This document shows positions 42,752 to 61,988 of a stretch of 64,000 nt of DNA, one piece after another. The notes under the pieces are model-generated. The model saw only the letters and a list, made by a program, of their open reading frames with translations, was not told the DNA's origin and ran no database searches. The translations under genes were made by a program, and so were the position numbers. Each line of letters opens with the position of its first letter. The stretch's first letter is position 1. Source of the stretch: Pseudomonas typographi (GTDB lineage: Bacteria; Pseudomonadota; Gammaproteobacteria; Pseudomonadales; Pseudomonadaceae); NCBI RefSeq assembly GCF_014694385.1, contig NZ_JAAOCA010000003.1, positions 62,001 through 126,000 on the forward strand, in the 5' to 3' direction.

Positions 42752-44092
42752 ATGCCCCGCCGTACCGACCAACTCAAGCTGGGGGCTTTTCTGGCCAACA
42801 GCGGCCACCATGTCGCTGCCTGGCGCCACCCCTTGGCGCAAGCCGATGCCAGCCAGGATTTCGAGCACTTCAAACACATCGCCGAAACCGCCGAGCGGGG
42901 TAAGCTCGATGCGCTGTTCATCGCCGACGTGGTCGGCCTTTGGGGTCACCACTACGACGCCTTGAGCCGCACCGCGCGCGCCGAGCATTTCGAACCGCTG
43001 ACCTTGATGGCCGCATTGGCCGCGGTCACCGAACACATCGGCCTGATCGCCACGGCCACCACCACCTACAACGAGCCGTACCATATCGCGCGCAAGTTCG
43101 CCTCGTTGGATCACCTGTCCAAAGGCCGCGCCGCGTGGAACGTGGTGACCTCGGTGGTCAGCGACGAGGCCTGGAATTTCGGCCGCGAGCAACATGTCGA
43201 GCATGGCGACCGCTACCAGCGCGCCGAGGAATTCGTCGAAGTGGTCAAAGGCCTCTGGGACAGCTGGGACGATGACGCCTTCGTGCGCGACAAGGACAGT
43301 GGTGTGTACTTCGATGTACAAAGGCTGCACACCCTCAACCACCGTGGCGAGCATTTCTCGGTGCGCGGCCCGTTGAACGTTGCCCGCGCGCCCCAGGGCC
43401 ACCCGGTATTGGTTCAGGCCGGTGCCTCCGAGGCCGGCCGCACGCTGGCGGCGCGCATCGCCGAAGTTATTTTCGCCAGCAGCAGCGAGGTGCCGGCCGC
43501 GCAAGCCTTTTACCGTGACATCAAGCAACGCGCGGCCGCCTTTGGGCGCGACCCCGACACGGTGAAAATCCTCCCGGGGGTAACCCCGTTCATCGCCGAC
43601 ACCCGCGAACAGGCCCAGGCCCTGTTCGAGGAATTCCAGGCATTGATCGACCCGGTACTGGGCCTGCGCTTGCTGGCCGACACCCTCGGCGATGACATCG
43701 ACCTGTCTGGCCATGACTTGGACGGGCCGTTGCCGCCTACCCCCGCCGGCCAACGCGGCAGCCGGCGGGACAAGGTATTGGAACTGGCGCGCAGCGAAAA
43801 CCTCAGCATCCGCCAGCTGTATTTGCGCCTGGCCGGGGGTAACCCGGTGATCGGCACCGCCGAGGATGTCGCCGACACCTTCGAGGCGTGGTTCGAAGCC
43901 CGCGCTTGCGATGGCTTCAACGTGTTCTTCCCGTACTTTCCCGGCGCCATCGACACCTTCGTGGACCAGGTCATTCCGCTGTTGCAGCAACGTGGCCTGT
44001 TCCGCCTGAACTATGAGGGCCAGACCCTGCGCGAGAACCTCGGCTTGCCGCGGCCCGGCAATCGTTTCAGCGACGTCGGGGCCCGCCCATGA
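42752..44092 (+). CDS. LLM-class flavin monooxygenase, NtaA/SnaA/DszA family
   Basis: The 446-residue protein has GHHVAAWRHPLAQADASQDFEHF (about residues 18-40), HFEPLTLMAALAAVTEHIGL, SLDHLSKGRAAWNVVTSVVSDEA, RLHTLNHRGEHFSVRGPLNVA and GHPVLVQAGASEAGRTLAARIAE, with LFRLNYEGQTLRENLGLPRP at the end. It is a full-length member of the family and close to the 6415 and 26806 enzymes. It overlaps surE by 4 bp. Confidence 0.92.
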   Translation: MPRRTDQLKLGAFLANSGHHVAAWRHPLAQADASQDFEHFKHIAETAERGKLDALFIADVVGLWGHHYDALSRTARAEHFEPLTLMAALAAVTEHIGLIATATTTYNEPYHIARKFASLDHLSKGRAAWNVVTSVVSDEAWNFGREQHVEHGDRYQRAEEFVEVVKGLWDSWDDDAFVRDKDSGVYFDVQRLHTLNHRGEHFSVRGPLNVARAPQGHPVLVQAGASEAGRTLAARIAEVIFASSSEVPAAQAFYRDIKQRAAAFGRDPDTVKILPGVTPFIADTREQAQALFEEFQALIDPVLGLRLLADTLGDDIDLSGHDLDGPLPPTPAGQRGSRRDKVLELARSENLSIRQLYLRLAGGNPVIGTAEDVADTFEAWFEARACDGFNVFFPYFPGAIDTFVDQVIPLLQQRGLFRLNYEGQTLRENLGLPRPGNRFSDVGARP

Positions 44093-45030
44093 AAACCACG
44101 GCTTGCCTGCTCGCGGCACTGTGCGCCTGGGTGGCGGCGCCGGCCTTCGCGCTGAATATCCTGTTGAGCAACGATGACGGCTATCGCCACCCCAACATTC
44201 GCGCCCTGTACACCGCCCTTAAGGCCGAGGGGCATAACGTCAAGATCGCGGCCCCGCAAACCGAGCAGAGCGCCCGTGGCGGCGCGTTCATCTATGGCCG
44301 GGAAGTGACCATCGGCCATGATGATGACCCTGCCTACCCCGACAGCTATTACCTGAGCACCTACGAGACCGGTACCTGTACCAGCCCGGCCTGTAACGGC
44401 CAAAGCGTGAGCATCGAGATCAGCGGTACGCCGGTGATGGCCGTGCTGATGGGGTTGAAAAAAATCCTGCCGGCGCCCGACCTGGTCATCGTCGGCCCCA
44501 ACCCCGGCAATAACGTGGGCGCGATCAACAGCGCCTCGGGCACCTTCAATGCCGCCAGCGCCGCCCTGTTTGCCGGGGTGCCGGCGCTCGCCGTCAGCAC
44601 CGACTTGAAAGACCACGACCCGCAGCGCGCCGCCGCCCTGGTGGCCCGCCTGGTCACGGCCCTGCAGCAGCATCGACAACCTAACGGCAAGCTGTTGCCC
44701 GACGGCGTGGGGCTGAATGTGAACCTACCGGCCGGGCCCACCATCAAGGGCATCAAGCTCACCCGGATAGGCCGTTACGTGGGTTTCGACGCGTTGTACA
44801 CCGAAGATCTGGGCAAGCTCGACAGTAAACTCGCCGGCAAGCCCGGCATTGGCTTCCAATACAGCCCCCCCGCCACCGCCGACGAACAAGATGACGAGGC
44901 CGTATGGGTGGCCAAGGGGTACCTGACCATCAGCCCTTTCACCGGTTTGCTGGAATCGCCCCGCGAGGATCAGCGCCTGCCAGGCCTTGCCGCATTGCCA
45001 TTGCTGGAGCAGCAAGGGCCGCAGCGATGA
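44089..45030 (+). CDS. surE: Exported SurE-family 5'/3'-nucleotidase
   Basis: The 313-residue protein has a signal peptide (MKTTACLLAALCAWVAAPAFA, about 21 residues) and then the SurE core: ILLSNDDGYRHPNIRALYTAL with the metal-binding Asp pair, APQTEQSARGG with the metal-binding Ser, and LVIVGPNPGNNVGAINSASGT with the metal-binding Asn. SurE removes phosphate from nucleoside monophosphates and other esters. Housekeeping SurE is cytoplasmic; this one should act in the periplasm. Its place between monooxygenases (4-bp overlaps on both sides) suggests it removes a phosphate, or a similar ester group, from the substrate before import. Confidence 0.88.
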   Translation: MKTTACLLAALCAWVAAPAFALNILLSNDDGYRHPNIRALYTALKAEGHNVKIAAPQTEQSARGGAFIYGREVTIGHDDDPAYPDSYYLSTYETGTCTSPACNGQSVSIEISGTPVMAVLMGLKKILPAPDLVIVGPNPGNNVGAINSASGTFNAASAALFAGVPALAVSTDLKDHDPQRAAALVARLVTALQQHRQPNGKLLPDGVGLNVNLPAGPTIKGIKLTRIGRYVGFDALYTEDLGKLDSKLAGKPGIGFQYSPPATADEQDDEAVWVAKGYLTISPFTGLLESPREDQRLPGLAALPLLEQQGPQR

Positions 45031-46043
45031 GCGGCGGTTTTAGCCTGGGCTTTCTCACCCGGGTGTATCAACCGGCGTTCAATCGCAAGGTCTACCACGA
45101 AACCCTGGAGCTGTTCAAAGCGGCCGAAGCCCTGGAGTTCGATTGCGGCTGGGTCGCCCAACATCACTTCGCCAGCGAACAAGGGCGTTTGCCGTCACCG
45201 TTAGTGCTACTGGCGGCGATCGCCCAGGCGACCCGCCGCATTCGCCTGGGCAGCGGGGTTATCGTGCTGCCACAAGAGCCGCCCTTGCGCCTGGCCGAAG
45301 ACGCCAGCGTGCTCGACCTGCTCAGCGGCGGCCGGCTCGAATTGGGCCTTGGCGCAGGCTTCGATCCCGCCACCTTCAGCGCCTTCGGCGGCGAACATGC
45401 CCGCCGCCATCAGGACTACGACGACCATTTGCAGCGGCTGTACAGCGCGCTCAGCGACCGCCCGTTGAACGCCGCCGGTGCGCGCCTGCAGCCGCGCACG
45501 GCGGGCTTGGGCCAGCGGTTATGGGAGGCGACCTCGCGGGTCGAGGCGGTCGCCGCCCGAGGCAATGGCTTGATCATGGCGCCCAACCCCCAATTGCCCA
45601 GCGAAGCCGCGGGCCCGTGGTTGCAGCGCTATCGCCAGGCCTGGCCCGCGCAGCAGCCGACGCGGCCACGGGCGGCGTGGGTGCAGGCAGTGTTTCCTGA
45701 GCAATACCCCGATCGGGAGGACAGCACCCTGCGCCGGGACATCCTCGCCTACGCTCAGCTTCAGCGGCACATCGGCGTTTACCAAGGGCCATTGGACGAC
45801 GACATCAGCGTGCTGCTCAAGCGCCTGGGCGTACTGCACGGCTCCTCGCAAGCGATCATCGACGTACTTGGCGAAGGCCCCCGCTTAGGGGTTGGTGACC
45901 ATTGGGTGGTGCAGGTGCAGACCGCCAGCACGTCGTTGCGCGACGCTATCCGCGCGCTTGAAACCTTCCGCGAACGTATTGCCCCGGTGCTGGGCTGGCG
46001 CCCCCGTGGCGCCCAAGGCTCGCCGCTGGCCACGGAGCACTGA
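45027..46043 (+). CDS. LLM-class flavin monooxygenase, bacterial-luciferase-like
   Basis: The start overlaps the surE stop (ATGA); earlier in-frame codons are shadow of surE. The 338-residue protein has FDCGWVAQHHFASEQGRLPSPLVLLAAIAQ (about residues 38-67), the luciferase-family segment containing the His pair, then LAEDASVLDLLSGGRLELGLGAGFD. It belongs to the LuxA-like branch, not the DszA/NtaA branch. It closely resembles the following gene, so the two arose by tandem duplication and may form a heterodimer, as luciferase alpha and beta do. Confidence 0.88.
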   Translation: MSGGFSLGFLTRVYQPAFNRKVYHETLELFKAAEALEFDCGWVAQHHFASEQGRLPSPLVLLAAIAQATRRIRLGSGVIVLPQEPPLRLAEDASVLDLLSGGRLELGLGAGFDPATFSAFGGEHARRHQDYDDHLQRLYSALSDRPLNAAGARLQPRTAGLGQRLWEATSRVEAVAARGNGLIMAPNPQLPSEAAGPWLQRYRQAWPAQQPTRPRAAWVQAVFPEQYPDREDSTLRRDILAYAQLQRHIGVYQGPLDDDISVLLKRLGVLHGSSQAIIDVLGEGPRLGVGDHWVVQVQTASTSLRDAIRALETFRERIAPVLGWRPRGAQGSPLATEH

Positions 46044-46048
46044 CTGCC

Positions 46049-47086
46049 ATGCCTCGACAACTGGGTAAACCCTTCAAACTGGGCTTTCTGAGCCACGCCT
46101 TCGGCGCCGACCCGCAACAGGCTTATGATCACCTGATCGAACAATTCGAAGTCGCACAGGCGCTGGGCTTCGACGGCGGTTGGATCGCCCAGCATCATCT
46201 GGACCAGGGGTTTGGCCGGTTGCCATCGCCGCTGGTGCTGCTGGCCGCTATCGCCGAACAGGTCCCGGGCATCGAGCTGGGTACCGCGGTGGTGGTGCTA
46301 CCGTTCGAAGACCCGACCCGCCTGGCCGAAGACGCCAGCGTGCTGGATAACCTCAGCGCTGGCCGGGTGCAACTGGGCATCGGCAGCGGTGGCGCGAACC
46401 TGGGCAACTTCGATGCCTTTGGCCAGGCCGCCGAGGATCGCCAGGCGCAGTTCGAGCAACGCCAGCAACAGCTTCAGCGCCTGTTGCAAGGCTACCCGCT
46501 GCCCGGCAGCGGCGGCCTCACCCTGCAGCCTCCTGCGCCAGGGCTTGCGCAACGCTTGTGGCATTCGCACGGCAGCGAAGCCGGCGCGCGCTATGCGGCC
46601 AGCCAGGGCAACGGGCTACTGCTGGGCACCGCCACCCATGACCCGCTGACGGTGCAGAAACCTTTGGCCGAGGCGTACCTGGCGGCCTGGGCCGACCCTG
46701 CCCACCCGCCGCGTATCGGCGTGGTCCGGGCCGTATTCCCGGCGCCGGACCGCGCCACCGCGCAAGCGGAGCTAGCCGTCGATATCGAAAAACATATTCC
46801 GCGCCTGCAACGTGAGGGCCTGATCGAGCAAGCGCTGGGCCTGGACGCACATCTACGGCTGATGAACGTGCACCATGGCGACACCGAACAGGTGATCGCC
46901 AGCCTGCGCCAAGACCCGGCGCTGTTTCCCTATGCCGATTATTTGATCGTGGTGGCCCAGGCGGAAAGCTCCACCCAGGCGCAGGTGCTTGAGCGCTTGC
47001 GGCTGATAGCCCAGGCCATCGCCCCGGCCTTGGGTTGGCAACCCCGCGCGGCCCGACCTACCCAGCCCCAGCCGACAGTGGGATGA
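46049..47086 (+). CDS. LLM-class flavin monooxygenase, bacterial-luciferase-like
   Basis: The 345-residue protein starts 5 bp after the previous gene. It shares LGFLSHAFG, DGGWIAQHHLDQGFGRLPSPLVLLAAIAEQ (about residues 45-74), LPFEDPTRLAEDASVLDNLSAGRVQLGIGSGG and ASQGNGLLLGTATHDPL with its neighbour. The paired AQHH motif is kept. It is probably the partner or paralogue of the 45027 product. Confidence 0.88.
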   Translation: MPRQLGKPFKLGFLSHAFGADPQQAYDHLIEQFEVAQALGFDGGWIAQHHLDQGFGRLPSPLVLLAAIAEQVPGIELGTAVVVLPFEDPTRLAEDASVLDNLSAGRVQLGIGSGGANLGNFDAFGQAAEDRQAQFEQRQQQLQRLLQGYPLPGSGGLTLQPPAPGLAQRLWHSHGSEAGARYAASQGNGLLLGTATHDPLTVQKPLAEAYLAAWADPAHPPRIGVVRAVFPAPDRATAQAELAVDIEKHIPRLQREGLIEQALGLDAHLRLMNVHHGDTEQVIASLRQDPALFPYADYLIVVAQAESSTQAQVLERLRLIAQAIAPALGWQPRAARPTQPQPTVG

Positions 47087-47123
47087 TGCCGCGTTCGCAA
47101 GTGTATTTTCACGGAGCCTGAGC

Positions 47124-48140
47124 ATGGCACTGGAATTCAGCTGGCAATTGCCGCTGTGCAGCCCAAACGGGGCTACCCCGCCCGGGCAGTGGATTCAACT
47201 GGCCCAAGCTGTGGAGTACGCGGGCCTCGATGGGCTTTGGGTGCTGGCGGGCGCGCAGTGTGCCGAAAGCCTAGGGGTGGCGGCGGCGCTGTGTGCCCAT
47301 ACTCACCAGGTGCAATTGACCGTGAGCGTGGCGCCGCAAGTGATGCTGCCGGCGGCGCTGTTCAGTACGCTGCAAAGTCTGCAATCGATCAGCGCCCACC
47401 GTGTGCGCCTACACCTGCCCGACGCTGAGCAAGGTGAGTTGCGCAGCCTGTTCGGCGAATGGCTCAACCGCGACCAACGCAGTGAACGCACCGGCGAATA
47501 CCTGGAGATCCTCGCGCAACTGCTCAACGGCAGCGACGGCGGCTTGCACTACAGCGGCCGGTATTTCCAATTGGAAAACGCAGGGTTTGCCCGGCGCGAC
47601 CTGCCGGCACCGCCGATCATTCTGGATGCCAGCCAAAGCCCTTCGCTCATCGCTCGCCACGCGGACGCTTGCTTGCTGCGCTCGGCGCCAGGGCCGCAGT
47701 TGAAGGCGCAGATCAGCCGCCTGAGTGCGCTGCAGCGCCCGGCCAAACGGGCGTTACGCTTCGCCTGTGGCTTCAGCCTGATCCAGGGCGACAGCGAGGC
47801 CCAGGCGTGGGAAGCGGCCGCCCGGCAACTGAGTGAACAGACCGCTGCGCGGCTCGTCCCGGCCGATTCGCCCCCCCGCCTCGGCGGCCCTGGCAACCCG
47901 CTGCGCCATTTCGAAATCGCCCCCAACCTGGTGCAACTGGGCCCTGGGCTGCCGCTCTATTTGATCGGCACACCTCGGCAGTTGGCCACCCGCCTGCAAG
48001 AACTGCACGGGCTGGGCCTGAACCACGTGGTGATTCAGGGCCACGCAGCCGTCAGCGATGTGCTGCGTTTTGGTGAGCGGGTGCTACCGTTGCTGGCTGA
48101 GCTAGGCCTGCGTAAGGAAGCGGTACAGCATGCCCGTTGA
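47124..48140 (+). CDS. LLM-class flavin-dependent oxidoreductase, SsuD-related
   Basis: A GGAG site in a 37-bp gap precedes ATG 47124. The 338-residue protein has EFSWQLPLCSPNG near the start, AVEYAGLDGLWVLAGAQCAESLGVAAAL, VSVAPQVMLPAALFSTLQSLQSIS, SDGGLHYSGRYFQLENAGF and LYLIGTPRQLATRLQELHGLGLNHVVIQGHAAV. This follows the SsuD/MsuD layout (LPxxxxG start, PSxxSPTxxARxxATLDRLS-like block) but is divergent, with key blocks weakly conserved. It may be a divergent oxygenase or a partner of the next protein, which it overlaps by 11 bp. Confidence 0.8.
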   Translation: MALEFSWQLPLCSPNGATPPGQWIQLAQAVEYAGLDGLWVLAGAQCAESLGVAAALCAHTHQVQLTVSVAPQVMLPAALFSTLQSLQSISAHRVRLHLPDAEQGELRSLFGEWLNRDQRSERTGEYLEILAQLLNGSDGGLHYSGRYFQLENAGFARRDLPAPPIILDASQSPSLIARHADACLLRSAPGPQLKAQISRLSALQRPAKRALRFACGFSLIQGDSEAQAWEAAARQLSEQTAARLVPADSPPRLGGPGNPLRHFEIAPNLVQLGPGLPLYLIGTPRQLATRLQELHGLGLNHVVIQGHAAVSDVLRFGERVLPLLAELGLRKEAVQHAR

Positions 48141-49251
48141 ACGTCGCCAAGCCCTCGAAATCGATTGGTTCCTCCCCACCAATGGGGATGGCCGCCACCT
48201 GACCAGCAGCGGCCTGCCGAAGGTGGCGCTGTTCCAGCAAGGCGAACGGGCGCCCACCCTGGGCTACCTGCGCCAAGTGGTCCGGGCCGCTGAGCAAGCG
48301 GGCTTCGACGGCATCATGGTGCCCACCGCCAGCGGCTTTGAAGACCCGTGGTTGATCACCGCGGTGTTGGCCCAGGAGGTGCGCCGCCTGCGCTTTCTGC
48401 TCACCCTGCGGCCCGGCGTGGAGTCGCCCGCCTATAGCGCCCACCGGGCGGCGACGTTGCAACGGCTCAGTGACAACCGCCTGGACCTGCACTTGGTGTC
48501 AGGCTCCAGCCGCTTCGAGCAACGCTCGTTGGGCGATTTTCTCGAGCATGACGAGCGCTATGCGCGCACCGCCGAATTCCTTCAGGTGTTCCAGGGCGCC
48601 TGGCATGGCCAAACTTACCCGCACCAGGGGCGCTACTACCGGCAAGAGGCCGGCGGCCCACTCGCGGCCGACGCGCGCGTGCCGGCGATTTATTTCGGCG
48701 GAGCCTCGGCCGCCGCCGAACAGGTCGGCGCCGCTTACGCGCAAACGTACCTGATGTGGTGCGAACCGCCGCCGATGATCGCTGAACGTATCCAACGGAT
48801 GCGCGAGCTGGCCGCTGCCCAGGGCCGCACACTGCGTTTCGGGCTGCGCTTGCATATCTTCGCCGCTGCCACCGACGACGAGGCCTGGGCCCATGTGGAA
48901 CGCTTACTGGACGAAATCCCAAAAGATGCCATCGACCGCGCCCAGCGGCAGATGGCCGCCTATGAGTCGGTGGGCCAGTCCCGCCAAACGAGTTTGGTCA
49001 AGGGCCGTGGCCGCCGCGCCCGGGAGCTTGAAGTGTCCCCCAACCTTTGGGCAGGCGTCGGCCTGGTGCGGGGCGGCGCCGGTACGGCGTTGGTGGGCAA
49101 TTACGAGCACGTGGCCGAACGTATCGAGCACTACCATGCCTTGGGTGTCGACTGCTTCATTCTGTCAGGGTTTCCGCACCTGGAAGAAGCCATCCACCTG
49201 GGTGCTGAACTGCTGCCGCGGTTACGCCGGATCAGCGCTGGCCAAGGGTGA
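48130..49251 (+). CDS. SsuD-family FMNH2-dependent alkanesulfonate monooxygenase
   Basis: The 373-residue protein aligns along its full length with E. coli SsuD: IDWFLPTNGDGRHL at the start, LRPGVESPAYSAHRAATLQRLSDNR (about residues 96-120), LVSGSSRFEQ, FLEHDERYARTAEFLQV, IYFGGASAAAEQVGAAYAQTYLMWCEPP, FGLRLHIFAAATDDEAW and SPNLWAGVGLVRGGAGTALVGNYEHVA. In that family the reaction releases sulfite and an aldehyde from an alkanesulfonate with FMNH2 and O2. Substrate range here is unknown, so no symbol is given. It is the last gene of the sigma54 operon and stops 12 bp before the SfnR-like gene. Confidence 0.92.
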   Translation: MPVERRQALEIDWFLPTNGDGRHLTSSGLPKVALFQQGERAPTLGYLRQVVRAAEQAGFDGIMVPTASGFEDPWLITAVLAQEVRRLRFLLTLRPGVESPAYSAHRAATLQRLSDNRLDLHLVSGSSRFEQRSLGDFLEHDERYARTAEFLQVFQGAWHGQTYPHQGRYYRQEAGGPLAADARVPAIYFGGASAAAEQVGAAYAQTYLMWCEPPPMIAERIQRMRELAAAQGRTLRFGLRLHIFAAATDDEAWAHVERLLDEIPKDAIDRAQRQMAAYESVGQSRQTSLVKGRGRRARELEVSPNLWAGVGLVRGGAGTALVGNYEHVAERIEHYHALGVDCFILSGFPHLEEAIHLGAELLPRLRRISAGQG

Positions 49252-54652: not shown

Positions 54653-55471
54653 TCAATAAAACACCAATGTCCGCAGTTCGATGCTGCGCCGCGGTGGCGC
54701 GCCGGGTGGGCTGTTTGGGTCATCGAAAGCGGTGTGTGCGGTCAACTGCGCCACGCCGGGCTGGCTGTCGTAGATTTTCAGCAGCAATGCCTCATCGGGG
54801 CGCAGTTGCGGGTAGTAATACCAACGGTGTGCCGGGTTGGCCTTGATCGACCAGGTTTCGCCGACTTTGTCGGGGTATACCAGGTCGCTGGCCACCAAGT
54901 CGGCGTCGGCGAGGGTACGGGCGTCGCACAGGGCCAACGGCGTGCTGTACACCGGCGCGCCGATGGGGCGCCAGACATTGATGATCGCGAAACGCCGGTG
55001 GCTGCGGTACTCGGCCTCTTGCTTGGGCAGGTGGTCGAACACCCGCCGCTGTGCCGAGCGCGGTGTTTGGTCGTTGTGCACGTAACGCACCGGCTCACGC
55101 AGGCCCCTCACTTCGCGGCCCGGTTCGTCAATTCGCACGGTGTGATCGAATACCACCACCTTTACCGCGCCCGTGGCGGCTTTGAGCAGGTTTTCGGTTT
55201 CAGTGTAATAGCGCTCGATGATCTGCGCTTCGTCCTGCAAGTCCAGCTCGGTGGGCTGCACGACCTTTTCGAAGCCCTCCACGTCCAACCGCGGGGCATG
55301 GCTCAGCAGCCGGGCATCTTGGATCAGCACCCGCGTCGGGTCCACTTCGCGTTGGTAAGGTTCGGCACCTTCAGGGTTTGCCGTGGCGTAGGTGACCGGG
55401 CGCTTGCCGGTGTCGAGCAGGTAATTCACCACCCCTTCCACACGGGCGTTGCTACTGTTCAGGCTTCCCAT
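54653..55471 (-). CDS. CmcJ/NvfI-family oxidoreductase
   Basis: ATG 55471 follows AGGAGG; upstream in-frame codons are not credible. The 272-residue protein has the CmcJ-like blocks VFDHTVRIDEP (about residues 106-116), REPVRYVHNDQTPRSAQRRV (about 121-140, with the His-x-Asp pair), FAIINVWRPIGAPVYSTPLALCDARTL and WYYYPQLRPDEALLLKIYDS (about 219-238). The family includes CmcJ, which with CmcI makes 7-methoxycephalosporins, and NvfI-type Fe/2-oxoglutarate enzymes; reactions of most members are unknown. It diverges from the small gene and XRE regulator, which may control it. Confidence 0.85.
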   Translation of the reverse strand: MGSLNSSNARVEGVVNYLLDTGKRPVTYATANPEGAEPYQREVDPTRVLIQDARLLSHAPRLDVEGFEKVVQPTELDLQDEAQIIERYYTETENLLKAATGAVKVVVFDHTVRIDEPGREVRGLREPVRYVHNDQTPRSAQRRVFDHLPKQEAEYRSHRRFAIINVWRPIGAPVYSTPLALCDARTLADADLVASDLVYPDKVGETWSIKANPAHRWYYYPQLRPDEALLLKIYDSQPGVAQLTAHTAFDDPNSPPGAPPRRSIELRTLVFY

Positions 55472-55564
55472 CGCTGCCTCCTGGGTTCGATATGGGGCGC
55501 CAAAGCAGGCGCACAAGCCCTGATTTTGCGGCATCGACCGGGGGTGGGGATAAGAACATCGGTG

Positions 55565-55577
55565 TCTAACCTTAGGC
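55565..55577 (-). promoter_or_regulatory. 13-bp motif shared with the tctC upstream region
   Basis: The minus strand reads GCCTAAGGTTAGA, identical to 7777-7789. It lies 93 bp before the CmcJ-type ATG in the same orientation. A similar CCTAAAGGTATTAG on the plus strand at about 55594-55607 makes an imperfect inverted pair with it. Confidence 0.4.
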
Positions 55578-55686
55578 GCGGCAGCGATCAAGAACCTAAA
55601 GGTATTAGCACATGCCAACTCATTATTATTCGATCTATCGCCGGCGCGTTACTGTACGCACAACTTTCCTGCATTAGGTGCCTGCC

Positions 55687-55854
55687 ATGCAACCGACCGC
55701 CCAGCTTTTCGACTTCGTTCGTTACCGCCAACGCCGCCAGGCCCAGCGTAACGCGCAGTTGATGTGGGCGATGTACGCCGCGCAAGCCAGCCTGGCACTG
55801 TTCACCCTCGGCCAGCTCAAGGCCGACCCCAACGGCCGCCAGGCACGACCATGA
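55687..55854 (+). CDS. Small 55-residue protein, function unknown
   Basis: ATG 55687 has AGGTG at 55676-55680, and the stop overlaps the ATG of the XRE gene by 4 bp (ATGA), which supports translation. The product is basic at the N-terminus (FVRYRQRRQAQRNAQL) with a mildly hydrophobic segment (LMWAMYAAQASLALFTLG, about residues 25-42) that could be an amphipathic or weak membrane helix. No family is recognised. It may be a regulatory partner of the XRE protein or simply set its translation by coupling. Confidence 0.6.
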   Translation: MQPTAQLFDFVRYRQRRQAQRNAQLMWAMYAAQASLALFTLGQLKADPNGRQARP

Positions 55855-56468
55855 ATGGCCAGCCCCAAGGGTTGGGCAGTGAGGGGGTGGAAGAACGGTT
55901 CGAGGAGGAAGACCGCAGCGTCGAACAGGTCGCCTTGAATCTGCAACGCCTGAGGGCCAAGCGTTATCTGTCGCTGGATGGGTTGGCGCGGTTATCGGGG
56001 GTCAGCCGGGCGATGTTGGCGCAGATCGAATCCGGTCGCAGCGTGCCGTCCATCAAGACACTGTGCAAAGTGGCGCGCGCGTTGAAGGTGTCAGTGGCGG
56101 CGTTTCTCGATACACAGGGGTTCGAAGGCGTGCACGTGCTGCCGGCGCGGGAAGGAAAACGCCTGGTCAGCGCAGACGGCGCGCTGGTGAGCCGGGCGTT
56201 GTTTCCCGTGGAGCAGCCCAGCGTGGTCGAATTCCATGAGCTGCGCTTGGCCGCGTTGGGCGAGCATGGCTGCCCGGCGCAACGGGTAGGGGTGTACAAG
56301 AACCTGGTGGTCAGCCAAGGCGTGCTGGAGGTGAGCGTGAACGAAACCGCTTACCTGCTTTCCCCTGGCGATGCCGTGGTGTTTTACGCCGACCAGCCAC
56401 ACCGCTACCGTAACCCGGCCGACAGCGAAACGCTGGCCTACCTGGTGGTCACTCAGCCAGAACGCTGA
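55851..56468 (+). CDS. XRE-family regulator with C-terminal cupin domain
   Basis: The 205-residue protein has an XRE HTH (LRAKRYLSLDGLARLSGVSR and AMLAQIESGRSVPSIKTLCKVARAL, about residues 30-75) and a cupin domain with YLLSPGDAVVFYADQPHRYRN (about residues 163-183). This is the single-HTH plus cupin type that senses small ligands. ATG 55851 is chosen because it overlaps the upstream small gene; it has an acidic linker (EERFEEEDRS) before the HTH. It converges with the Met/Cys-protein gene with a single base between the stops, and may regulate the CmcJ-type gene, the Met/Cys gene or the amino-acid importer. Confidence 0.9.
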   Translation: MNGQPQGLGSEGVEERFEEEDRSVEQVALNLQRLRAKRYLSLDGLARLSGVSRAMLAQIESGRSVPSIKTLCKVARALKVSVAAFLDTQGFEGVHVLPAREGKRLVSADGALVSRALFPVEQPSVVEFHELRLAALGEHGCPAQRVGVYKNLVVSQGVLEVSVNETAYLLSPGDAVVFYADQPHRYRNPADSETLAYLVVTQPER

Positions 56469-56469
56469 C

Positions 56470-56958
56470 TCAGCAGGTACAGCACATCATCGGCATGCCG
56501 TTGCAGCTCATCATCATCGGCATGCTGCAGTCGGTCATCATCTTGTTCATCAGCTTGCAGCAGTTTTCCATCATCGCCATGGGCATGCCGGGCATTGGCG
56601 TCATCATGCACTTCATGCAATCAGCCTCCAGGGTGCAGGTCATCATGCAGCGCATCATGGGCATGTTCATCATGGGCATGTTCATGGCCGGCATCATGCT
56701 CATCATGGCCATGCACTCCTCGCTCATGCCCATCATCATCATGCCACCGCACTGCATCGCCATCGGCATGCCGCACTTCATCATCATCGCCATCATTTCG
56801 GCGCTGTTGCAGAACATCTTCATGTCCATGCCAGCGGCCGGCTTGAGGGTGCACATCATACCGTCGGCCATCATCTGGCAATCCATGGTCGCCATCATCA
56901 TCGGCATGCCCATCATAGGCATGGTGGTGTTCATCGGCATTTGCATTGCATTCATCAT
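56470..56958 (-). CDS. Methionine/cysteine-rich protein, function unknown
   Basis: The 162-residue product contains 65 Met and 17 Cys, so 82 residues carry sulfur. It starts at ATG 56958 (ATG ATG), with GGAG at 56970-56967, 8 bp upstream. Cys is TGC in all but one case and other codons are the GC-ending ones used by the neighbours, so this frame is coding and its hydrophobic antisense frame is not. There are many MPM, MMxM and MxM runs, a repeated CTL motif (CTLKPAAGMDMK, CTLEADCMKC) and no signal peptide or Met-free hydrophobic segment, so it should be cytoplasmic. Possible roles are sulfur store, Cu(I) buffer or oxidant sink. No family is recognised. Confidence 0.85.
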   Translation of the reverse strand: MMNAMQMPMNTTMPMMGMPMMMATMDCQMMADGMMCTLKPAAGMDMKMFCNSAEMMAMMMKCGMPMAMQCGGMMMMGMSEECMAMMSMMPAMNMPMMNMPMMRCMMTCTLEADCMKCMMTPMPGMPMAMMENCCKLMNKMMTDCSMPMMMSCNGMPMMCCTC

Positions 56959-57004
56959 GATCGAAACTCCGTTATCGAATGGTCGGTACTACTGTCTGGA
57001 GGCG

Positions 57005-57032
57005 ATTCTAGGCCTCAGCTCACCCACTACAA
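57005..57032 (-). promoter_or_regulatory. Possible sigma70 promoter of the Met/Cys gene
   Basis: On the minus strand TTGTAG (57032-57027) and TAGAAT (57010-57005) are separated by 16 bp, giving a start near 56998 and a leader of about 40 nt. The -35 is weak and no operator was identified. Confidence 0.35.
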
Positions 57033-60345: not shown

Positions 60346-60415
60346 AAACAGGATAGAAGCATAAGGCAGTCTGCAAAGGGGTGTTCAAGTGGATGCGGGT
60401 GTATCCCACGAGTTT

Positions 60416-61193: not shown

Positions 61194-61988
61194 TCACCAC
61201 CCCGGCTGGTACAGCTTCCCATACGCCGTATCCAGCGCCTGGCGCACCACCGGCGAGTGCTGGTACACGTCGATGAACTGCTTCAAACGCGGGTCGTCGC
61301 GGTTGTCTGGCCGAGCGACGAACTGGATCACGTATTCCGGGTGGTCTACGCCGTCGAACAGCAGCGCCGCGTTCGGGTCGATGGTCTTGGCCAGGCGAAT
61401 ATAGTGCGGGTAGCCTTGGGCCAAGTCGACGTCGTCCAGCACCCGCGCCAACTGCACCGCTTCCAGTTCGGTGATCTGGATATCCTTGGGGTTGGCGCTG
61501 ATGTCGGCCAGGGTGGCGTGGTAGCCCACCCCGGGTTTGAGGCTGATCAGCCCGGCTTTTTCCAGCAACAACAGGCCGCGGCCGCCGTTGATGGCATCGT
61601 TGGCGATCGCCACTTTCGCGCCTTGGGGCAGGTCTTCCACGCGCTGGTACTTCTTCGAGTACAGGCCGATATTATTGATGATCCCCGGCGCCACCGCCAC
61701 CAGGTTCAGGCCGGCGGTTTTATTGGCGTTTTCCAGGAACGGGATGTGCTGGAAGTAATTGGCGTCCAGGTCTTTGTTGGCCAGTGCCGTGTTGGGCGTT
61801 ACCCAGTCGTTGAACTCGACCAGCTCCACCTCCAGGCCTTGTTTTTTCGCTTCGGCCACAGCAGCTTCCAGCGGCGGCGCGAAGGCTGCGGTGGTGCCTA
61901 TTTTCAGCGGTGCCGCGCACGCCAGCGAGGCGCTGCCCAACAGGGCGGCGAATACGGGAAACAGCAAACGACGGAAACGAAGGCGCAT
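61194..61988 (-). CDS. metQ: MetQ/NlpA-family methionine-binding protein
   Basis: The 264-residue protein has a signal peptide to about residue 25 (cleavage near ACA-APL; the SLAC sequence is a poor lipobox). The mature part follows MetQ closely: VELVEFNDWVTPNTALANKDLDANYFQHIPFLE (about residues 55-87), GIINNIGLYSKKYQRVEDLPQGAKVAIANDAINGGRGLLLLEKAGLI and AQGYPHYIRLAKT. It should bind methionine or a close analogue. The metN ATPase and metI permease genes are not adjacent, so it works with a transporter encoded elsewhere. Confidence 0.9.
   Translation of the reverse strand: MRLRFRRLLFPVFAALLGSASLACAAPLKIGTTAAFAPPLEAAVAEAKKQGLEVELVEFNDWVTPNTALANKDLDANYFQHIPFLENANKTAGLNLVAVAPGIINNIGLYSKKYQRVEDLPQGAKVAIANDAINGGRGLLLLEKAGLISLKPGVGYHATLADISANPKDIQITELEAVQLARVLDDVDLAQGYPHYIRLAKTIDPNAALLFDGVDHPEYVIQFVARPDNRDDPRLKQFIDVYQHSPVVRQALDTAYGKLYQPGW

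Follow-up and report, generated by a model that had tools for sequence, protein, structure and literature searches.

A minus-strand gene of Pseudomonas typographi encodes a 162-residue protein of which 82 residues are Met or Cys, and comparison with its relatives identifies it as a real gene under selection. The new protein family to which it belongs could be a dedicated bacterial sulfur amino-acid bank, controlled by a SutR-like sensor and encoded by a module that often lies among organosulfur-scavenging genes in Pseudomonas; we put this forward tentatively, at a probability that stays clearly below even. The gene was found in a 64,000-nucleotide stretch of contig NZ_JAAOCA010000003.1 (hereafter, the window), where it is accompanied by the following signals:

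56470..56958, minus strand: Met/Cys-rich protein gene, 162 aa (65 Met, 17 Cys), from the ORF and its translation, the family and the coding-frame test
56967..56970, minus strand: Shine-Dalgarno sequence GGAG, 8 nt before ATGATG
57005..57010, minus strand: −10-like hexamer TAGAAT, 52 nt before the ATG
57027..57032, minus strand: −35-like TTGTAG in a conserved CTTGT block, a weak match to the consensus

Translation of the minus-strand ORF bears out the composition given in the first-pass annotation (65 Met and 17 Cys in 162 residues). Likewise, the GGAG 8 bp before a double ATG and the single base (56469) between the stop codons of this gene and of a convergent plus-strand regulator gene are both present in the sequence. 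His, Ile, Val, Trp and Tyr are absent from the protein, Leu occurs three times and Phe once, and with 6 Lys and 1 Arg it has few tryptic sites. Its calculated mass is 18.2 kDa, its pI is 4.65 and sulfur makes up 14% of its mass. Since no Lys or Arg is seen by inspection among residues 1–38, the protein should lack a Sec-type n-region, in agreement with the earlier remark that it has no signal peptide.

Named genomes yielded 109 confirmed loci with relatives of the Met-rich gene, of which 80, all titled Pseudomonas, were kept; plant-associated holders include P. protegens 14B2 and a P. chlororaphis strain. Together with the window's protein they form the set of 81 sequences used below (A1 comprises 56 of the 81 and A2 42). 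Across the set, length varies between 159 and 173 aa, Met content between 37 and 43% and the number of Cys between 14 and 17; 76 sequences start with MMNA and 79 end with CCTC, the remaining two ending with CCTV and CRTC. In P. caricapapayae (L106:2918-3430), a short repeat has apparently altered the start region to MQCNAMQMPMN, and the gene has no adjacent regulator. A search of 398 Pseudomonas genomes produced matches in 94 at E ≤ 1e-3; after removal of two weak rows (G140 and G338, E ~1e-3, with internal stops), relatives were counted in 92 genomes, ca. a quarter, among them a relative present as two separate pieces (G342) and another truncated at the end of its contig (G227). The named-genome and 398-genome sets overlap and are therefore not independent. 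Searches with a 56-member profile gave matches in 5 of 293 genomes sampled from the order and in 6 of 398 sampled from the phylum, all of them in two genera of the family to which the window belongs. No relatives were found in the plasmid and phage collections searched. The protein had no match in Pfam or NCBIfam (both at E up to 10), in PADLOC (E up to 1) or among PDB sequences (E up to 10). No description of it was found in the open-licence papers searched, nor did the terms tried in a search of the text of a paper on sulfur starvation of P. aeruginosa retrieve such a protein (PMC12581299). By these comparisons, the protein belongs, so far, only to its own family.

In 40 sister pairs, of which those below 15% distance were counted, pN/pS was 0.133 for the Met-rich frame, 1.61 and 1.37 for the other two sense frames and 1.32, 0.38 and 2.60 for the antisense frames. 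The low value of 0.38 probably arises because that antisense frame shares its third codon positions with the sense frame. The in-register antisense frame, which is rich in His, is open in 80 of 81 relatives, and one could suspect the Met-rich ORF of being its chance counterpart; since the His-rich frame is without constraint (1.32), it is the shadow of the ATG codons instead. It is thus exceedingly improbable that the locus makes no functional protein, being either a chance ORF opposite the His-rich frame or a Met leader-type attenuator. The comparison of frames (0.133 against 0.38–2.60 in antisense) contradicts an antisense artefact; the start, the end, the internal duplication described below and the promoter-like sequence are all conserved; and an attenuator would have no close same-strand gene to control, since the convergent regulator lies downstream. 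The first-pass annotation had named a lack of homologues and a synonymous-rate preference for the antisense frame as outcomes that would speak against the gene; neither outcome was observed.

A hexamer TA(G/A)AAT is present upstream of the gene in 81 of 81 relatives, at a distance of 48–58 nt from the ATG in 79. An automatic scan with the sigma-70 consensus listed no promoter. GC-rich discriminators are a feature of growth-rate-controlled promoters, and the GC-rich stretch that follows the −10-like hexamer may be of this kind. When a palindrome common to the relatives was sought in the promoter region of the Met-rich gene, the best one occurred in 42% of rows, and no shared operator was identified.

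The protein can be divided into four parts:

56902..56958, minus strand: N-terminal tail, residues 1–19, low pLDDT; 16–24 aa in the family, Met 0.52, no Cys
56695..56901, minus strand: predicted repeat 1, residues 20–88 (two strands, helix, two strands, short helix), from AlphaFold2 and the internal duplication
56662..56694, minus strand: linker, residues 89–99, low confidence; 18–32 aa in the family by the script's landmarks, Met 0.48, no Cys
56473..56661, minus strand: predicted repeat 2, residues 100–162, rich in Cys, with the CCTC end; last 11 residues with low pLDDT

The two halves of the window's protein align with a score of 127, compared with 59 ± 8 for shuffles (z 8.6), and the family consensus aligned half against half yields z = 12.2; judging from the sequence, the protein is an internal duplication. 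AlphaFold2 models of two members, built with different alignments, each contain two ββαββ repeats, with mean pLDDT values of 63.2 and 62.0 and a pTM of 0.59 in each; the best ten-residue blocks reach 73–86 and the tails fall below 50. We therefore assign the protein, with moderate confidence, a predicted alpha/beta fold of two ββαββ units. The four-helix bundle that had been suggested earlier is not what these models show. Foldseek found no matches to either model in the PDB at E ≤ 0.001, and the best VIA-align match of the first model had a Z of 4.5 (rmsd 3.7 over 87 residues). Models of such middling quality and fold matches this weak point neither to a known fold nor to a new one.

The extreme Met/Cys content is under selection: Met stays within 37–43% in 81 of 81 sequences, Met columns change slowly, and Met density is held in segments that otherwise vary. 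In 70 Met-majority columns of the family alignment, 380 of 5607 cells are occupied by other residues, while 59 columns with a polar or small majority change more (953 of 4767 cells off-majority). Leu, Val, Ile or Phe account for 139 of the 380 Met replacements, and Asn, Gln, Lys, Thr or Ala for 217 of the remaining 241. The N-terminal tail and the linker vary in length and sequence across the family, and yet their Met density stays near 0.5 (0.52 ± 0.02 and 0.48 ± 0.03, respectively, in the 80 of 81 sequences that could be parsed), with Cys absent. Cys is confined to the folded repeats, ca. 5 in repeat 1 and ca. 10 in repeat 2. Over the whole protein, 45 of 65 Met and 14 of 17 Cys are conserved at ≥95%. 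Where positions are free to vary, the composition is nevertheless maintained, which would suit a store or a loose multivalent ligand; the fixed Met and Cys positions of the repeats would suit a structural role or metal sites.

The surroundings of the gene include the following features:

42752..49251, plus strand: five LLM (luciferase-like) flavin monooxygenase-like ORFs and one other (44089-45030), by eye
55687..55854, plus strand: 55-aa ORF upstream of the regulator, with an ATGA overlap; tblastn relatives at 72 of 80 loci
55851..56468, plus strand: SutR/1Y9Q-like XRE-cupin regulator, convergent partner of the Met-rich gene, from HTH_3 and Cupin_2, the PDB match and scores
57380..60345, minus strand: amino-acid-type ABC importer (binding protein, ATPase, two permeases), from SBP_bac_3, ABC and permease families
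61194..61988, minus strand: NlpA/MetQ-family binding protein; MetQ-named NCBIfam models match below their cut-offs

The regulator carries HTH_3 and Cupin_2 domains, both above Pfam cut-offs, and lies convergently, at most 1.8 kb downstream of the Met-rich gene, in 72 of 80 loci; in two of the eight loci without a linked regulator, the contig ends within 250 bp. The 55-aa ORF, whose relatives were sought in a position-restricted tblastn search (E up to 1), has no Pfam match and in the window follows the pattern FDxxxYRxRRQAQ...MWxMYA. We read the Met-rich gene, the regulator and the 55-aa ORF as a putative three-gene module. Among the 398 genomes of the genus, 90 have both the Met-rich gene and the regulator, 2 the Met-rich gene only, 2 the regulator only and 304 neither (phi 0.97), a count that leaves out the regulator matches in G219 and G265 (49–52% identity). 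The four exceptions are G204, whose lone regulator has an in-frame stop, G227 and G294, both at contig ends and one of them with the second lone regulator, and G401, without a regulator at the threshold. The copy with the stop (G204:C1:3779311-3779853), in a genome with no match to the Met-rich gene, is consistent with loss of the module. In another genome, the regulator and the Met-rich gene are ca. 7 kb apart and both retained (G170:C1:5156864 and 5164159).

A strongly conserved AT-rich element, AAA..GAATTA..A.AT..AAA.TCAGTATTTA..G..ATAA, is found upstream of the regulator operon (55596-55643, plus strand; 66 aligned rows). When the window was scanned with it, the second-best match lay upstream of the amino-acid importer, near 60412 on the minus strand; with a score of −11.0, compared with −14.7 in a reversed control, this match is too weak to be used.

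The best PDB match of the regulator is 1Y9Q of V. cholerae (E 1.1e-19), and BLASTP aligns it with E. coli SutR (YdcN) at 32% identity over 164 residues. In a comparison by scores rather than by a tree, 9 of the 73 module regulators (the window's and 72 from the loci) obtained 74–88 bits against the 1Y9Q stretch and 61–80 against SutR, while four other such proteins of the genome, its paralogs, obtained 26–34 and 33–41 bits, respectively; PuuR reversed the order, with 13–18 for the module regulators and 55–127 for the four other proteins. NCBIfam yielded weak matches below cut-off to the HTH part, none of them named SutR. By these scores, SutR and 1Y9Q are the closest relatives of the regulator in the comparison, and PuuR is distant.

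What is reported of this group bears on the signal that the regulator may read. D-methionine is described in the cupin pocket of 1Y9Q in an account of XRE-cupin regulators (PMC7901475), the same structure is listed with Zn elsewhere (PMC2684688), and the paper that defined SutR is titled as concerning sulfur utilization (its title as given in the reference list of PMC8464067). The D-methionine could be adventitious; moreover, 1Y9Q is a generic template, since all eight XRE-cupins of P. aeruginosa were modelled on it (PMC7901475). The sutR gene is annotated in K-12, adjoining ydcO, and 1Y9Q-like regulators of other genera lie beside BenE-family transporters in three of five scanned loci, whereas the regulator studied here adjoins the Met-rich gene. 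Of 10 proteins encoded next to five 1Y9Q-like regulators of other genera, none could be recognised as the product of a sulfur gene, which counts against a Met-like ligand.

The neighbours named in the first-pass annotation were recovered: the regulator with HTH_3 and Cupin_2, an importer with SBP_bac_3, ABC and permease components, and an NlpA/MetQ-type lipoprotein. Neighbour families were assigned by a scan of 20 chosen proteins. By eye, the segment 30119-49251 contains peptide-importer-like genes, TonB receptors and the LLM-like ORFs, suggestive of organosulfur scavenging, and a CmcJ/NvfI-family oxidoreductase (54656-55618, minus strand) is divergent from the regulator operon. The synteny with sulfur genes that had been proposed as a check was examined with 12 organosulfur queries, six of which were taken from six tested loci and four of which are the window's LLM-like ORFs. 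Organosulfur genes (SsuA/B/C-like proteins and LLM monooxygenases) were present within ca. 8 kb at 30 of 80 named loci, a count that is inflated because the loci come from related species and the six query loci match themselves. For loci in 20 matched genomes, the count was 5, compared with 2 of 57 random 16.4-kb stretches (p = 0.011); 60 stretches had been drawn from the 20 matched genomes, two near the Met-rich gene (G381 and G029) were left out, and one was nonexistent. No organosulfur match was present at the other 50 named and 15 matched loci.

Our favoured reading is that the Met-rich protein is a regulated cytoplasmic reserve of Met and Cys, to which we give close to, though still under, an even chance. 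In this scheme, cells with ample sulfur would make the small two-repeat protein and store both amino acids in it; Met and Cys stand in for almost all other hydrophobic residues, which gives 82 sulfur atoms per 18-kDa chain. The signal for the regulator would be a sulfur metabolite, with a Met-like compound as the leading candidate, and the regulator would set expression of the gene accordingly. Upon sulfur shortage, synthesis would stop and the protein would be degraded to free Met and Cys, a pool that may feed sulfur as well as Met for initiation and SAM. In sulfate starvation, Rhodococcus is reported to avoid Met/Cys-rich proteins and thereby spare sulfur (PMC8557817), so a protein of this kind should be off at that time. 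The reserve is supported by the co-occurrence and linkage of the regulator, its kinship with SutR and 1Y9Q, the D-methionine of 1Y9Q, the organosulfur neighbours, the slow Met columns and the Met density held in Cys-free variable segments. Several observations count against it. Many Met and Cys of the repeats are fixed, more tightly than a mere store needs; the Cys of repeat 2 form clusters like those of metal sites (CC, CCTC); and most loci (50 of 80 named, 15 of 20 matched) are without an organosulfur match. The generic nature of the 1Y9Q template, its perhaps adventitious D-Met and its Zn listing, the absence of a SutR name among the NCBIfam matches, the BenE-family and ydcO neighbours of the related regulators and the failure to find a shared operator weigh in the same direction. 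The idea of a sulfur or methionine reserve, already raised in the first-pass annotation, has thus gained a conserved SutR/1Y9Q-like regulator and recurrent organosulfur genes, with the function itself still inferred.

The clusters and conserved Cys (14 of 17 at ≥95%) also lend themselves to the main rival reading, a cytoplasmic buffer for Cu(I) or another soft metal (Ag, Cd, Hg), in which clustered Cys and runs of MxM and MxxM would hold the ions while the repeats fold or tighten around them. The dense MxM/MxxM segments favour it, as does the existence of cytosolic Cys-rich Cu(I) stores without an export signal, described for Csp3 (PMC7558416). We consider this rather unlikely, while more probable than the readings that follow. 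Three queries for Cu-ATPase-type proteins matched near 1 of 80 named and 0 of 20 matched loci, compared with 1 of 57 random stretches; the partner is an XRE-cupin rather than a known type of copper regulator; there is no Pfam match; the predicted fold is alpha/beta and not four-helix; and the Met count is probably far above what metal sites need. Of the copper store proposed in the first-pass annotation, metal buffering is retained as a candidate, while the helical-bundle version finds no backing in the AlphaFold2 models. Csp1 and Csp3 are, like the Met-rich protein, small, bacterial and rich in sulfur ligands, with Csp3 types cytosolic (PMC7558416). They are, however, four-helix bundles that bind Cu(I) mainly via Cys, whereas the Met-rich protein has a Met:Cys ratio of about 4:1, is predicted to form ββαββ twice, matches no Pfam family and lacks copper-ATPase genes as regular neighbours. 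Neither the models (mean pLDDT 63 and 62) nor Pfam place it among the Csp proteins.

Its Met-dense, weakly ordered segments could instead act as a sacrificial sink for hypochlorite-type oxidants or peroxide, recycled by methionine sulfoxide reductases in the manner of MrpX and BcrX; Met-rich sinks of this kind exist (PMC8315932), and their composition resembles that of the Met-rich protein. According to the same source, these proteins are MsrPQ-linked, in Brucella also to a sigma/anti-sigma pair, and MrpX is periplasmic (PMC8315932), whereas the protein studied here lacks a Sec-type signal by inspection and has an XRE-cupin as partner. MsrA, the sole Msr searched for, turned up near a single one of the 80 named loci and was absent from the surroundings of the 20 matched loci and from the 57 random stretches. 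An exported, MrpX-like identity does not agree with this picture, and the oxidant scavenger considered in the first-pass annotation has lost ground and appears improbable. Marginally less probable still is that the target of the regulator is a divergent transporter or oxidoreductase gene, the Met-rich protein being an accessory of uptake such as a chaperone or ligand-binding partner. XRE-cupin regulators are described as repressing adjacent genes, mostly for enzymes and transporters, and six of seven tested in P. aeruginosa act on the adjacent gene (PMC7901475). This, and the conserved AT-rich element upstream of the regulator operon, would suit such a role. The gene beyond the regulator, however, differs among loci (TonB receptor, SsuA-like protein, CmcJ/NvfI oxidoreductase), and the partner that stays the same is the Met-rich gene.

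Should the reserve reading hold, the Met-rich protein would do the opposite of sulfur sparing, with 82 sulfur atoms banked per 162 residues. A literature search for proteins that serve as nutrient stores of sulfur amino acids retrieved plant cases alone; the seed proteins delta-zein and 2S albumin would then work alike, although they are plant proteins and the bacterial one has no Pfam match. Even if it is a metal buffer, the protein would be a natural example of a domain that is predicted to fold with Met and Cys as nearly its entire set of hydrophobic residues. The regulator kept together with it offers a ready-made route to its signal, and dozens of named Pseudomonas genomes sample the module.
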